Assembly: GCF_004323845.1 (NCBI RefSeq)
Contig: NZ_QPGR01000007.1
Span: forward strand, 55,548 to 119,547
DNA: 64,000 nt
From: Campylobacter novaezeelandiae
Lineage (GTDB): Bacteria > Campylobacterota > Campylobacteria > Campylobacterales > Campylobacteraceae
Reading direction: 5' to 3'
The notes under the pieces were generated by a model that did not search any database, was not told where the DNA came from, and saw nothing but the letters and a program-made list of their open reading frames with translations. How positions within the stretch are numbered: position 1 is the first letter of the stretch; every line of letters starts with the position of its first letter. Both the position numbers and the translations under genes were made by a program. Below are positions 52,310-59,349 of the stretch, in pieces.

Positions 52310-53409
52310 AATCTTTATTATTTTTAGCTTTAATTCTTGCCATAGGGTTAAAATTTTACTCTATTAACTTTCTTATTACTTTATTAGTTATTTCATTCTT
52401 AATCTTTTTTCATGAGCTTGGACATTTTTTGGCAGCAAAATCTTTAGGGGTGAAAGTCGAAGTTTTTAGTATAGGTTTTGGAAAAAGTTTATTAGAATAT
52501 AATTTTAAAGGAACAAATTATAGATTAAGTACTTTACCACTTGGAGGTTATGTTAAACTTAAAGGGCAAGATGACATGAGACCAGGCTTTGAAAATTTAG
52601 ATAGCGATAGCTATAGTATTTTAAGCCCTATAAAAAAAATTTACATACTTTTTGCAGGACCGTTTTTTAATATATTCTTGGCTTTTTTGTTCTATATATT
52701 AATCGCCAATTTAGGCATACAAAAATTTTCTCCTATAGTAGGAAATGTGGCTTTAGATTCTGCTGCTTTTCATGCAGGAATTAAAAAAGATGATATAATT
52801 TTAGAGATTAATCATCATAAAATTAAGAGTTTTGATGAAATTTCAAAACTAGTTAAAAATGAAAAATTACAAATTTTAATTCAAAGAAATAATGAAAAAT
52901 TACAAATAGAACTAACGCCAAAAATTGCATCTTCTTATAATGAATTTTTACAACCGATCCAAAAAACATTAATTGGAATTTCACCAAATGGCGAATTAAG
53001 CACTATATACTATAGAGGTTTTAGTGCCTTAAAATACGCTTATGATGAAAGTTTAAACGCTTCAACACTTATAGTAAAAGGTATAATAAAACTTTTAAAT
53101 ACCGAAATTGACGCAAAGAATTTAGGCGGTATTATCACTATGGTTGATATAACTTCTAAAGCTGCAGATAGTGGTATTTCAGTTCTTTTGATTATTACAG
53201 CTTTAATTTCTATCAATCTTGGAATTTTAAATCTCTTGCCTATACCTATGCTCGATGGAGGACACATACTTTTTAATCTATATGAAATGGTATTTAAACG
53301 CAAAGTTCCACAAAAAGTTTTTGAATATTTAAGCTACGGAGGTATGGCTATTTTGCTAGCTTTAATGCTTTTTGCAACATTTAATGATATTACAAGAATA
53401 ATACAATGA
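52306..53409 (+). CDS. rseP: RIP metalloprotease RseP (site-2 protease family)
   Basis: RseP is an intramembrane zinc protease. In 367 residues the zinc motif FHELGHFLAAKSLG lies in the first membrane region. A PDZ domain (about residues 145-200) includes AGIKKDDIILEINHHKI. The second active-site motif is NLLPIPMLDGGHILFNLYE. All catalytic residues are intact. It overlaps pgsA and the following DUF535 gene by 4 bases each, so the three are translationally coupled. Its regulatory substrate in Campylobacter is not evident here. Confidence 0.93.
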   Translation: MKSLLFLALILAIGLKFYSINFLITLLVISFLIFFHELGHFLAAKSLGVKVEVFSIGFGKSLLEYNFKGTNYRLSTLPLGGYVKLKGQDDMRPGFENLDSDSYSILSPIKKIYILFAGPFFNIFLAFLFYILIANLGIQKFSPIVGNVALDSAAFHAGIKKDDIILEINHHKIKSFDEISKLVKNEKLQILIQRNNEKLQIELTPKIASSYNEFLQPIQKTLIGISPNGELSTIYYRGFSALKYAYDESLNASTLIVKGIIKLLNTEIDAKNLGGIITMVDITSKAADSGISVLLIITALISINLGILNLLPIPMLDGGHILFNLYEMVFKRKVPQKVFEYLSYGGMAILLALMLFATFNDITRIIQ

Positions 53410-54260
53410 GTCAATTTAAATTCCCTACTCCAAAATTTGATGACAAAAGTAAAATGATTAGTTTTAGACGTTGTATAAGATTTTACCTAAGAAAAATTTT
53501 ATACTATCCTCAAATTAGATTTCTTGAAAAAACACTTAACATAGAAGAAAATAAAAATCTTAAATCTTTTTTTAATAAACCTGATATCTGCTATAACGCT
53601 ATAAGAAGATTTTGTGATAAAAGTTTTAATGCAAATGAACGTGTAAAAACTTTAATTTACGATGCAAATAAAGGGCTTAAAAGTTTTAAATTTTTACCCA
53701 AAGATCAACTCATCTTTAATTTTGATGAGAATTTTGAACTATATTTAGGAAATAACCACCATGTTCGTGAAGAAGGTCTTTGGGCATTTTCTCTTAGATA
53801 TCAAAAACATGTTATTGAACAATGCTGTTTTTGTTTTACTTTAGAAAATAATCTTTTAATTTCTTGTATTCAAGGTTATAAACACGCTAATTTTAATACA
53901 TTAGATATAAATAAAATTTTCACAAAAAAATGCCACGGTTTGCGTCCTATAGCTTTACTTATAAAATGCGTTAAAATGCTTTGTAAATATTTAAAACTTG
54001 ATATTACACTTGGAGTCTATGAAAAAAATCAAATCAGATCTCATAAAGGAAAAAATAAAGGCTATTTTGTTGATTATAAAAAAATTTGGTTAGAAAATGG
54101 AGGCAAGCTTATTAAAATAAACAATCATAAATATTATAAGCTTTTACACGAACAAAAAAGCCTTGAAGAAATTCCAAGCAATAAACGTTCTATGTATAAA
54201 AAACGCTTTATTATGCTTGAAGAAATCAGACAAAATTTAAATCAAATTTTGTCTAAATAA
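53406..54260 (+). CDS. DUF535 (VirK/YbjX-like) protein
   Basis: This 284-residue protein is of the DUF535 family related to VirK, YbjX and SomA. Recognisable parts are the FNFDENFELYLGNNHHVREEGLWAFSLRYQ region, quoted in part as EGLWAFSLRYQ. The later CIQGYKHANFNTLDINKIFTKKCHGLRP, in part IQGYKH and GLRP, and SHKGKNKGYFVDYKKIW also fit. The family has been linked to envelope integrity and peptide resistance in enterobacteria, without a defined activity. It is the third gene of pgsA-rseP-DUF535 and converges with the isomerase gene, overlapping by 8 bases. Matches Cj1069. Confidence 0.82.
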   Translation: MSQFKFPTPKFDDKSKMISFRRCIRFYLRKILYYPQIRFLEKTLNIEENKNLKSFFNKPDICYNAIRRFCDKSFNANERVKTLIYDANKGLKSFKFLPKDQLIFNFDENFELYLGNNHHVREEGLWAFSLRYQKHVIEQCCFCFTLENNLLISCIQGYKHANFNTLDINKIFTKKCHGLRPIALLIKCVKMLCKYLKLDITLGVYEKNQIRSHKGKNKGYFVDYKKIWLENGGKLIKINNHKYYKLLHEQKSLEEIPSNKRSMYKKRFIMLEEIRQNLNQILSK

Positions 54261-55254
54261 TACTTTTTAAATATTCCACACTTTTTTCACAACCTTGTTT
54301 TTGGAAATTTAAAAGTTTTTCTAAGTGTTCATTTGAAATCTCTTGAGGGTAATAATACTGCATAGCTTTTAAATCTTTAAATAAAGGATCCTTTATCTTA
54401 AAAGCTCCTTTGCCTAATTCTTTTATTCCGCCTGTTCCTTTCTCTCTTTTAAAAGTAGCGCAATATGGAAAGCATTGCTCTATATTTATCCTTTCTAGTC
54501 CTTGATCTTTTAAAATCTTAATGCAAGTTTTTATATCTAAACTCCCATCTCCCAAAGGAACGCCACAAACATATGGGATATTATCTTCTATAAAAACAAT
54601 ATGATCTTTACAATGTGTACTAAAAGTATGTTTAGCCATATTTTTACAAGCAACAATTGGATCTTCATAAGCCATCATCGAATTCCCAAAATCATATAAA
54701 AAACCAACATTAGGATGATTGATTAAATCTAAAAGCTCAAGTAGCTCGATAGAAGTTTGATACTCATGATTTTCAATAGCAAGTTTTAGATTATTTTCTT
54801 CTAAAAGTGGGATTAAAGCTTTTATTTCATTGGCCGCACTTAAAAATTCTTCTTTATTAAATTTTGCTGTAATTTTAGAGTCATCAAATGCTCCATCGCT
54901 TGCATTTTTTACTTTTTTAGTATTATCAGTTAAAGGCACATAAGATCTTATAATATTTGCATTTAAAATCTTACAAACTTTACTAATTTTTTTAAATTTA
55001 TTTAAATCAAAACCTTTAGCATCAATCTCACAATACATTTTATATTCATCAAGCTTAGCCTTTATTTTTAGAAGGTGTTTTTCATCATCACTTCCCAAAC
55101 ATCCCCACTCTTCATCTAATCCAAAATCTTTAATAATGTTTATAATAACGCCATCACACCCTAAATTTTTAGCAAAATCTATATAAGAAAATATATCCAT
55201 TTTGCCATTTTGAAACCAAAGATGCATGCTTTCTGTCTCTAAACCTATTTTCAT
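54253..55254 (-). CDS. Sugar phosphate isomerase/epimerase-like TIM-barrel protein
   Basis: This 333-residue protein is of the xylose isomerase-like/AP endonuclease 2 superfamily. Features are LGCDGVIINIIKDFG, LAIENHEYQTSIELLELLDL (metal-binding Glu), VGFLYDFGNSMMAYED (metal-binding Asp), HCKDHIVFIEDN and GDGSLDIKTCIKILKDQG. These place the usual Glu/Asp/His metal ligands. The specific sugar is unknown. Its start overlaps the stop of the MFS transporter by 4 bases, which suggests shared uptake and metabolism. It also makes this gene depend on transporter translation, which is phase-variable. Confidence 0.82.
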   Translation of the reverse strand: MKIGLETESMHLWFQNGKMDIFSYIDFAKNLGCDGVIINIIKDFGLDEEWGCLGSDDEKHLLKIKAKLDEYKMYCEIDAKGFDLNKFKKISKVCKILNANIIRSYVPLTDNTKKVKNASDGAFDDSKITAKFNKEEFLSAANEIKALIPLLEENNLKLAIENHEYQTSIELLELLDLINHPNVGFLYDFGNSMMAYEDPIVACKNMAKHTFSTHCKDHIVFIEDNIPYVCGVPLGDGSLDIKTCIKILKDQGLERINIEQCFPYCATFKREKGTGGIKELGKGAFKIKDPLFKDLKAMQYYYPQEISNEHLEKLLNFQKQGCEKSVEYLKSII

Positions 55255-56526
55255 TGAACCACTCCTTGTAATTTTTTCTTAGCTATCATTTTAAGTAAAA
55301 TTGACGTAACAATAACTCCACAAATTGCAAAAAATCCCATAAGACTAAAAACAATTTGATATCCAAATAAACCCTTGAATTTATCAATAATAAAACCATA
55401 AAGTGCAAAACAAAAAAGTTGCGGAGAATATCCAAATATACAAGCTATACTCATAGCTGCCCCGCTAATTTCTCTTGGAATTTGAATTTCATCAACCGGA
55501 GCAAAAAAAGTCGCTCTCATAGTAAAAACTAAAGCTGCAAAACCTAAAGTTAAACTCATACCAAAATAAATATTTAAACTATGATGAGGCATAAAAATAA
55601 AAATTAAAATCGCAATGGCAGCCAAGATAAGAGCAAAACGCAAATATTTCGTAGATGAATGAAATTTCTTATCAGCTAAATATCCCCCAATAGGACCGCC
55701 TACTAATTTTAAAGTATATTGATTGATAATTCCATAAACGCCTACTAAAGCTACTGGCATACCATAAATATCTTTTAAAAAAGGGATAAAATAAGTCAAT
55801 CCACAATAAACTGAATAAATAGTAAAAATAGTTAATGAAACCACCCAAATTTCAGGAGTTTTAACCGCTTTTAACACCCCATTCCAAGCGGCTTTATTTT
55901 TACTAATCTCATTTCCTTTTTCATCTTTAGTATTTATCTTATCATCTTCAAGTAAGAAATAAGCCAAAACTCCAGCCACAATTACACAAGTGCTATAAAA
56001 AAGTATAGCAGCTCTTAAACCACCAGCACCTGAACCAAGAAGTAAGAAAATTCCCAAAGCACTAAAAGCAACTATAGTATCAATAACTCCGCGTCCTGCT
56101 TCTAAAAATCCAAAAAGTCTTCCTTGTTGCGTAGAATCCCCAAGCAAACGAATAGCTTTTAATAATACAGGCCAATAAATCACTTCTCCAAATAAAGAAA
56201 GAAGACCCCAAGCGATTAAAATACCATAAAAAGACGGAAAAGTTGAAATATAAATTCCAGTTAATCCAACACAAATTAACGATAAAGGGATAAGAATTTT
56301 TTTAGAAAATCTATCAGCGATATAAATAGAAGCAAAATTTCCTATCGTCTGAACTATACCATAAACAGACAACGCAAGACCAATTTGAGTATTACTAAGA
56401 CTCATAAATTCTTGCATAGGCACATAAAAAGCATCTTTTAAAGAAGAGAGTTTAAATACAGTACCCCCCCCCCAGAACTAAAACGATAAAAGTAAGCCAA
56501 CGAATGGGCTGTTTATTGTTTGACAT
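55251..56526 (-). CDS. Phase-variable MFS transporter, OFF (out of frame) in this sequence
   Basis: This 12-helix-type major facilitator protein is interrupted by a G tract. From the ATG at 56526 the frame reads MSNNKQPIRWLTFIVLVLGGG and then hits TAA three codons past the tract. From 56460 downward the other frame reads TVFKLSSLKDAFYVPMQEFM and continues for almost 400 residues to 55251. Removing one G joins the halves into a 424-residue protein with a plausible first transmembrane helix. The body has YIADRFSKKILIP (the loop 2-3 motif) and is like sugar or organic-anion permeases. A ribosome-binding site (AAAGG) precedes the ATG. The substrate is unknown. It is co-transcribed with the isomerase-like gene. 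Confidence 0.85.
56464..56473 (-). repeat. Homopolymeric G10 tract (C10 on + strand), contingency locus
   Basis: This is the only G or C run longer than six that I noticed in the window. It lies at codons 18-21 of the transporter. Ten bases give a premature stop, and nine give the complete reading frame. Tracts of 8-11 G/C are the standard phase-variation switch of Campylobacter, although they are usually found in surface-structure genes. Confidence 0.92.
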
Positions 56527-56670
56527 AATAAAGCCTTTAGTTTTATTTTAAACTAAATAATAACTTAAAATAAATCAATATTAACTATATATTAAAAAAT
56601 TTAATACAAACATTTAAATTTTGTAACTTTTTGTAATAGTCTTAAAAAGTATAGATTAAGTATTTTTTGA

Positions 56671-56676
56671 TATAAT
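56671..56676 (+). promoter_or_regulatory. -10 element of rpsF-ssb-rpsR
   Basis: TTTTTTGATATAAT, a textbook extended -10 box for Campylobacter sigma-70, lies 66 bases before the rpsF ATG. The leader would start near 56683 and contains a hairpin. Confidence 0.7.
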
Positions 56677-56688
56677 ATTAAGTTCCTT

Positions 56689-56713
56689 GCCTAAAAGAGA
56701 TAATCTTTAAGGC
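56689..56713 (+). promoter_or_regulatory. Leader hairpin upstream of rpsF
   Basis: GCCTAAAAGA and TCTTTAAGGC form a 10-base stem with one A-A mismatch and a 5-base loop. It sits between the promoter and the ribosome-binding site (AAGGAG) of rpsF. It could be a ribosomal protein autoregulatory element. I do not see the CCG loop of the known S6:S18 leader motif, so this is tentative. Confidence 0.35.
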
Positions 56714-56736
56714 TTAATATCCACAAGGAGAAAAAT

Positions 56737-57114
56737 ATGAAACATTACGAGGTTTTGTTTATTTTAAAACCTACTTTAACAGAAGAAGAAGTAAATACTA
56801 AGTTGGAATTCATTAAAGAAGTCCTTACAAAAAATGGTGCAAGCATTGAGACAGTTGTTCCAATGGGAACTAGAAAACTTGCATATAAAATTAAAAAATA
56901 TGAAAGAGGAACTTATTTTGTAATTTATTTTAAAGCACCTACAAATTTAATTAAAGAACTTGAAAGGGTTTTAAGAATTACAGAAGAAGTAATAAGATTT
57001 TTAATTGTAAAATATGAAAATAAAAAAGAAATTGCAGCTTGGGAAAAGCTTAGCCAAGGGATTAAACAATCAAAAAAAGAAATTAAACCCATAGAGGCTC
57101 CAGAAATTCAATAA
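56737..57114 (+). CDS. rpsF: 30S ribosomal protein S6
   Basis: S6 binds 16S rRNA together with S18 on the platform of the small subunit. The 125-residue protein starts [18 protein letters not shown] and includes [19 protein letters not shown] and the helix-forming [20 protein letters not shown] charged C-terminal extension follows. It has a strong ribosome-binding site and is first in the conserved rpsF-ssb-rpsR operon. Confidence 0.97.
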
Positions 57115-57909: not shown

Positions 57910-58365
57910 TCACCAAGACTTCCAAAAGTCTTGGTTTGTATAAATTAAATCCTTTTTATTTATAAAAATTTCATCATTAACTGCTTGATTTGAATTTAAA
58001 CGTATACTAATATTTATGATAATAACTCCATCTTTTGATAAATTAGCATCTTGATTAATACTTTTAAATTTAAAATTATCACACTCTGCAATAGGATAAA
58101 AATAATCAATCCTTACTATATCATCGTCTTTTGGATAATTAAAATTTATAAAATTAATACATTCTTTGCCTTCTTGTTTAGCTTTATATAAAAAATATTT
58201 AGCAAGCTCTTTTGCATTTAAACTTAAAATTCTAGCTTGTATATAATAATACTCATCTCTTAATATCCTTGGTATATAACTTGAAATATTAAAACTTAAA
58301 TTGATTAAAAAAGAAACTAAAGTAATTAAAAAAACAATGCTAATTAAAATATAAGCTTTTTTCAT
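57910..58365 (-). CDS. Putative pseudopilin-like protein (Cj1079-like)
   Basis: This 151-residue protein has a single N-terminal hydrophobic helix (MKKAYILISIVFLITLVSFL) and a polar, presumably periplasmic, remainder. The N-terminus resembles minor pseudopilins, but the Glu at +5 of mature type IV pilins is missing (AYILIS). It overlaps the preceding prepilin-like gene by 26 bases and is the last of a three-gene pseudopilin-like set after proC. Related genes in C. jejuni contribute to DNA uptake. A role as a competence pseudopilus component is inferred from context. Confidence 0.72.
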   Translation of the reverse strand: MKKAYILISIVFLITLVSFLINLSFNISSYIPRILRDEYYYIQARILSLNAKELAKYFLYKAKQEGKECINFINFNYPKDDDIVRIDYFYPIAECDNFKFKSINQDANLSKDGVIIINISIRLNSNQAVNDEIFINKKDLIYTNQDFWKSW

Positions 58366-59053
58366 TATATATCAATTTTTCCAAACATAAATTTTTATTA
58401 TCTTGCGATGAGCAAAGTTTTATTTTAATCCCTTTATTATTCTGATTTATAGTAAAATCACTAATATTTTGTGCCAATATTCCTTTTAAGGTATGATTTT
58501 TAGAAAAAGGATCAACTTCATACTTTAATTCTTCATTTTTTAAAAAAAGATTTAATTTTGCTTGCAAAGGTAAAAAATGTCCTGTAAAATTGTGTTCTAA
58601 AAACAAATTTTCATTATCTATAATCAAAGACTTATAAATATCATCTTTAAAAAGAATATAAATAAATTTATCATTTAAATTGAACAAATCTTTATTATTA
58701 TGATATTGAATCAAAAAATTACTTTTTGGAGAATAGTATTTTTCATCTTTATCTTTTAAAATAAGAGTTGAATTTATTATAAAAGCTTGTTTATCTTTTA
58801 AAAATAAAAGGTTTTCTTCATCAAATAATAAACAAGTTAAAGCATTATTTTGTATTTTTATATTTAGGCATTTTTGAGTTATTTTTTCCAGGCTAAGCAA
58901 AGCATTTTTTAAATTTAAAATTGTATTTTGGTTTTTCAAAGTTTCAAAATGATAAAAATAAATCTGAGATAAAACTTTTGAAATAATTATAGATAAAATA
59001 GAAAAAATAATTAATCCCAAAATAATCTCTAAAAAAGTAAAAGCTTTTTTCAT
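58340..59053 (-). CDS. Type II secretion/competence prepilin-like protein (Cj1078-like)
   Basis: This 237-residue protein has a prepilin N-terminus: MKKAFTFLEIILGLIIFSIL. Cleavage would be after KKA, giving FTFLE with the conserved Glu5 and a hydrophobic helix. The residue before cleavage is Ala instead of the usual Gly. The remainder has no recognised domain and includes two late cysteines (KLCSSQDNKNLCLEK). It overlaps its neighbours by 4 and 26 bases. Inferred to form part of the competence pseudopilus. Confidence 0.78.
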   Translation of the reverse strand: MKKAFTFLEIILGLIIFSILSIIISKVLSQIYFYHFETLKNQNTILNLKNALLSLEKITQKCLNIKIQNNALTCLLFDEENLLFLKDKQAFIINSTLILKDKDEKYYSPKSNFLIQYHNNKDLFNLNDKFIYILFKDDIYKSLIIDNENLFLEHNFTGHFLPLQAKLNLFLKNEELKYEVDPFSKNHTLKGILAQNISDFTINQNNKGIKIKLCSSQDNKNLCLEKLIYNEKSLYFN

Positions 59054-59349
59054 TTAAAATAACTAGTATAATTCTTATCTTTAATCTTCAACTTTTTTAA
59101 TTCAAATAAATCATCACTTACATACTCTTCTAATAACTCTAAAGAACCTAAATTTGAAGTATTAATTACTATATCTTTGAATTTTGGATTATTATATAAG
59201 CTTTCTTCCAAGTCATAAAGTCTTTGAAAAAAACCTAAAAAATTATAATTTTTATAAATTTGCATATAAATTAAATGCAAAGTAGAAAAAACAAAAGATA
59301 AAATTACTATACAAAATATAAGCTCAATAAAAGAAAATGCTTTTTTCAT
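59050..59349 (-). CDS. ctsT: CtsT-like pseudopilin, transformation protein
   Basis: This short 99-residue prepilin-like protein has the N-terminus MKKAFSFIELIFCIVILSFV, in which the IEL segment supplies the conserved Glu5 and Ala is at -1. In C. jejuni the equivalent small gene after proC (Cj1077, ctsT) is required for natural transformation; the symbol is by position and type. It begins one base after the proC stop and overlaps the next pseudopilin gene by 4 bases. Confidence 0.78.
   Translation of the reverse strand: MKKAFSFIELIFCIVILSFVFSTLHLIYMQIYKNYNFLGFFQRLYDLEESLYNNPKFKDIVINTSNLGSLELLEEYVSDDLFELKKLKIKDKNYTSYFK

Follow-up and report, generated by a model that had tools for sequence, protein, structure and literature searches.

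Discussion of phase variation in Campylobacter centers mostly on changing surface structures. Examples are cj1295, maf1 and maf7, which carry the same type of tract, of similar length, as the gene described here and come from the same genus, but act in flagellar modification, that is, on surface targets rather than on a transporter (PMC6321876). The core phasome of C. jejuni also includes genes with a metabolic or transport annotation and a G/C tract, namely ansA (L-asparaginase) and hxuB_1 (heme/hemopexin transporter precursor); these differ from the present gene in that their tracts consist of C (C 9-11 and C 8-11, respectively) and in that neither belongs to the MFS (PMC6321876). Transporter genes proper are listed as phase-variable as well: cj0046 of C. 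jejuni, a putative sodium:sulfate transporter gene with a tract length that changes on host passage, and cj0676, a kdpA-like potassium transporter gene of the same species, both appear in PMC8355987, and CJJ81176_0086, an anion transporter with G9, is described as phase-variable in PMC13317227. In being transporter genes listed as phase-variable, cj0046 and CJJ81176_0086 resemble what is proposed here. However, the listing for NCTC 11168 gives cj0046 as a pseudogene, and for CJJ81176_0086 the product of the ON state is given as 59 residues, whereas the present gene is intact on both sides of the tract and under purifying selection; cj0676 also encodes a transporter, but one for ions, and is called a pseudogene in NCTC 11168. 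The transporter family of cj0046 and CJJ81176_0086 is different from the MFS. We take these two genes to be counterparts.

A phase-variable MFS nutrient importer in Campylobacter was not found in a literature search that took in PMC6321876, PMC8355987, PMC13317227 and PMC539331, although the supplementary lists of PMC6321876 (536 groups) may include the gene. The preliminary description of the locus had set it sharply apart from the known Campylobacter switches. Its core (a poly-G tract that shifts the frame of an MFS gene, a conserved partner, and a phasome with identified families mainly of the surface-modification type) stands, and the contrast was too sharp, with phase-variable transporter genes (cj0046, cj0676 and CJJ81176_0086) already in print, at least as listed in these sources. 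Loci of this kind have thus been described before. What is unusual is the target, a well-preserved transporter with a TIM-barrel enzyme as its partner.

The gene is located in a stretch of 64,000 nucleotides from Campylobacter novaezeelandiae (assembly GCF_004323845.1, contig NZ_QPGR01000007.1, positions 55,548 to 119,547; hereafter, the window). The relevant features, in window coordinates, are the following.

56464..56473, minus strand: G10 homopolymer, the proposed slippage site; it lies on codons for a conserved glycine motif, close to where the first hydrophobic stretch ends.
56452..56526, minus strand: the frame opened by the ATG, which crosses the tract and ends with TAA; its 24 residues are the predicted OFF product, and the first of them match the N-terminus of the in-frame orthologues.
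55251..56423, minus strand: uninterrupted frame of 390 codons past the tract, encoding the MFS transporter (PF07690, E 2.2e-27).
54253..55254, minus strand: partner gene, AP_endonuc_2 / xylose-isomerase-like TIM barrel, 333 residues.

The G10 tract indeed throws the MFS gene out of frame, and the length from the ATG to the downstream stop, 1276 bases, is a multiple of three plus one, both as originally described. The frame that begins with ATG 56526 ends at TAA 56452-56454, and 17 full codons precede the tract; the 21 codons reported earlier are obtained only if the codons of the tract are counted in. The downstream frame, previously given as almost 400 codons, has 390 and opens at GTG 56423; taken alone, it is without the first hydrophobic stretch. 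The transporter matches MFS_1 (PF07690) with 96.4 bits, above the curated cut-off of 33.4, and no further disabling lesion is seen in this copy. With ten G inside the frame, the tract lies above the poly-G/C length of at least 7 that serves as the cut-off for SSR-mediated phase-variable genes of Campylobacter in PMC6321876. The ATG of the partner overlaps the stop codon of the MFS gene (ATGA).

This anatomy, together with reports on Campylobacter poly-G tracts of similar length (PMC6321876), suggests that the gene very probably encodes an MFS membrane transporter that is phase-variable by slipped-strand mispairing at the poly-G tract. The tract would gain or lose G's during replication, and the frame would toggle accordingly, yielding the full transporter in one state and the 24-residue peptide in the other. 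While the transporter is OFF, translation of the overlapping TIM-barrel gene might perhaps be reduced (translational coupling of the partner to the transporter is possible), although it is preceded by an AAGGAG sequence of its own. The transporter itself might, tentatively, import a nutrient.

No other G or C run in the window is longer than 6. The three overlapping matches to an 8-G pattern all fall within this tract, and shuffled sequences average 0.04 matches. This comparison flatters the case, however, and is not the right null, since tracts of 8 G or more number 59 in the whole genome, or roughly one every 27 kb. Codon usage in the 52 ORFs of the window (GGG accounts for 10.9% of glycine codons and CTG for 0.5% of leucine codons) gives a probability of about 2e-5 for CTG-GGG-GGG-GGT as the spelling of Leu-Gly-Gly-Gly, a test that, like the comparison with relatives, was devised after the site was seen. 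The glycine motif under the tract, near the end of what by eye looks like the first transmembrane helix, is Gly-Gly-Gly-Thr within the genus and Gly-Gly-Gly or Gly-Ala-Gly outside it, with Ser in the first position in three of the four Brachyspira loci. In an alignment of 25 relatives, position three never varies and position one is at least 90% conserved. The relatives spell this motif with mixed GGN codons; of 80 named loci, C. taeniopygiae has the longest run there, with 9 G, and the maximum in each of the other 79 is 2-6.

Within the genus, MFS matches are present in 27 of 50 genomes, 14 of which contain a close orthologue, the other 13 matches being distant (26-36% identity). Ten of the 14 orthologues are in frame: nine with runs of at most 6 G (G003, G006, G007, G011, G029, G030, G035, G036 and G041) and that of C. 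taeniopygiae (G044) with G9. In two, the frame is lost at the tract (the window with G10 and G002, another species, with G8), and in two further species, G015 and G024, the gene is broken away from it. At least 8 G are therefore found at the motif in 3 of the 14 orthologue genomes, and the lengths of 10, 9 and 8 represent a comparison between species, with one genome for each. The product is 24 residues in the window vs 419-423 in nine in-frame orthologues; that of G035, also in frame, is 445 residues as listed, counted from an earlier ATG. All ten in-frame orthologues start upstream of the motif, with a conserved N-terminus (nine of the ten were aligned). The preliminary description had named, as evidence that would speak against a switch, orthologues with no G tract and a start downstream of it: a long tract is indeed missing from nine in-frame orthologues, and none of the ten starts downstream. 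In G024, the TIM-barrel partner of the broken transporter is still intact, and in G015 the partner is broken too. In G003 and G041, a G10 tract is present in the gene upstream of the transporter (L010:1091-1100 and L011:3060-3069), the transporter itself being free of one.

The looser 6-G pattern matches in 4 of the 50 genus genomes. Of 398 genomes in an order-wide pattern search, one, that of the window, shows the tract, but this search covered 22 genomes of the genus (own included), without G002 and G044, and so understates the genus. A search for other isolates of the species gave no match among plasmid records; viral contigs yielded 69 pattern matches but no relative.

In a tree built from the part after the tract, with 12 genus sequences (G015 and G024 omitted) and three Helicobacter sequences as the outgroup, the window groups with G035, which is without a long tract (support 97), and G044 and G002 belong to a separate clade with G036 and G011, both without runs of 7 or more G (support 93); the order within this second clade is weak (47-68), and the three Helicobacter sequences failed to form one group. 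The simplest reading of this tree would be that long tracts arose two or more times. One of the two long-tract clades includes zebra-finch species. The window protein and that of its sister G035 are 97% identical, with dN/dS of 0.044, and the coding capacity beyond the tract is kept as an open frame of 390 codons. Since the split, the window branch accumulated 29 synonymous and 5 non-synonymous changes and the sister branch 31 and 6, so that the protein beyond the tract probably was in use for most of that time. These comparisons speak against an old pseudogene; a very recent frameshift would still be compatible with them.

One of the routes to such loci that the PhasomeIt authors propose, as a general possibility, is that three consecutive glycines come to be encoded by nine G's (PMC6321876), and the window locus fits this route closely: a structural glycine motif probably drifted to all-G codons. 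The locus would thus be a concrete example of this proposed origin of contingency loci, with tract-free relatives available for comparison.

The three tract lengths in three species, the purifying selection and the intact frame make a good, if indirect, case for a reversible switch. Counting against it, the nearest sister and the eight other in-frame orthologues are without a tract of 7 or more G, so the gene does not carry the switch as a conserved feature; furthermore, according to PMC6321876, some rare tracts may be chance products that have yet to be lost. The tract-free sister genome and this remark on rare tracts would also suit a recent one-off frameshift, whereby a neutral codon change made the tract, slippage followed, and this isolate or its species would be in the course of losing the transporter, with slippage possible but of no benefit; that other lesions break the gene in G024 and G015 indicates that loss does happen in the genus. 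However, the window copy carries no other lesion, purifying selection on its branch is as strong as on the sister branch, long tracts are found in two clades, and the G9 of one species leaves the gene in frame. Such a loss hence appears rather unlikely, and it overlaps with phase variation because the tract would still slip.

Homopolymers are error-prone and the genome is a 59-contig draft, so an error of sequencing or assembly, with a true tract length that keeps the gene in frame, has to be considered. It seems improbable: shorter Campylobacter poly-G tracts are reported as accurate on Illumina (PMC6321876), which may not be the platform used for this genome, and the tract would remain a slippage site even so. 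A shorter MFS protein as the real product could start at GTG 56423 or ATG 56417, which are in frame past the tract, but this would discard the N-terminus common to all ten in-frame orthologues, including K23, K28 and F31, which lie ahead of both codons and are invariant in the 25 aligned relatives. Given that every in-frame copy starts upstream of the motif, a start past the tract is very unlikely indeed.

Within the preferred reading, phase variation by slippage at the tract, one may go further and propose that a nutrient importer became a reversible contingency locus at least twice in Campylobacter by the same collapse of glycine codons, so that cells would differ at random in whether they take up one metabolite. 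This extension is tentative and somewhat doubtful, and an adaptive metabolic switch is, similarly, conceivable rather than probable. If true, it would place a well-kept metabolite importer under the kind of switch known from surface structures, and so offer a clear system in which to ask whether random switching is also of advantage in the use of nutrients.

The metabolic partner pointed out at the outset is conserved: the 14 genus genomes with a close orthologue of the transporter all have the TIM-barrel gene, and one further, incomplete genome, G042, has a fragment of it where a contig ends. At this locus (window 53406-57114; L001-L014), the transporter-TIM pair is next to a 125-residue ORF, presumably rpsF, in 10 of the 14 genus genomes and elsewhere in 4 (L003, L004, L010 and L011), which suggests that the pair has moved or been inserted separately.

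Outside the genus, the TIM gene adjoins the transporter in records from Helicobacter, Clostridium, Cetobacterium, Brachyspira and Veillonella, and in Pseudomonas a more distant TIM gene and a MocR regulator are found beside the transporter (both in 18 of 80 loci). The pairing across these genera implies that transporter and TIM enzyme form an old functional unit. These and the following counts refer to 80 of the 98 relatives found and to neighbors anywhere in the fetched stretches, some of which are cut by contig ends, with the names of neighbor families taken from representatives. A window-like TIM gene and a type I phosphodiesterase are each present in 21 of the 80 loci and never together (0 of 80). 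Of the 32 loci that encode an AgcS-type symporter, 7 also contain the TIM gene, as do 9 of the 38 with a DeoR regulator; none of the 24 loci with a D-serine ammonia-lyase does. Two contexts of the transporter are seen in other phyla, either with the TIM enzyme or with type I phosphodiesterase, AgcS and D-serine ammonia-lyase. In L064-L102 (Bacillota, mainly Lachnospiraceae), the MFS gene is accompanied by genes for a type I phosphodiesterase, an AgcS symporter, a D-serine ammonia-lyase, a HAD hydrolase and a DeoR regulator, with all six genes in 16 of the 80 loci; this cluster apparently is a catabolic operon.

Neither of the two window proteins reaches the cut-off of any NCBIfam family with a known substrate. 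The transporter scores 61.6 bits with the PgtP phosphoglycerate transporter (TIGR00881, cut-off 407.75) and 48.5 bits with the D-galactonate transporter (TIGR00893, cut-off 395), and the partner scores 26.5 bits with the myo-inosose-2 dehydratase IolE (TIGR04379, cut-off 290). A search of solved structures identifies two weak matches for the partner, the best one being Art22 (E 5.3e-6), and no match for the transporter; the literature searched on Art22 contained nothing relevant. The neighbors suggest a serine-containing phosphodiester as the substrate. For the TIM version of the system, this candidate was rejected as a claim and is at most a lead: the lyase never occurs with the TIM gene in the 80 stretches, the window genome is without the D-serine ammonia-lyase, which is found in 4 of the 50 genus genomes, and a literature search on this candidate returned nothing on point. 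The missing lyase also argues against a D-serine compound. An organophosphate or an amino-acid conjugate could be offered as a weak guess. The D-serine ammonia-lyase is present in both G002 and G044, the long-tract genomes of the second clade.

The surroundings of the 58 other poly-G tracts in this genome yielded 59 rows after repeat removal, so that at least one is counted twice; the Pfam scan included 45 pieces of at least 60 codons and the MFS piece, and the 14 rows with shorter pieces were left out. Among the families listed (25 of 29) are MptE-like proteins and DUF2920 (3 members each), GDP-mannose dehydratase or epimerase (2 members), methyltransferases, capsule synthesis, glycosyltransferase, formyltransferase, an acetyltransferase of the Antibiotic_NAT family, an EcoRI-type endonuclease, and DUF2172, which is the domain of cj1295 according to a table in PMC6321876. 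MFS_1 is listed with one member, by its E-value evidently the window transporter. Within the limits of this one genome, the families beside the other tracts are mostly those of surface or flagellar modification or carry annotations without a function. The expectation that G tracts reside mainly on surface-modification genes thus holds in this genome for the identified families, as far as the 25 of 29 listed ones go.

Further along the window, at 57910-59349, there are three consecutive ORFs, at least two of which appear by eye to have prepilin-like N-termini (MKKAF..E) and which possibly encode pseudopilins.
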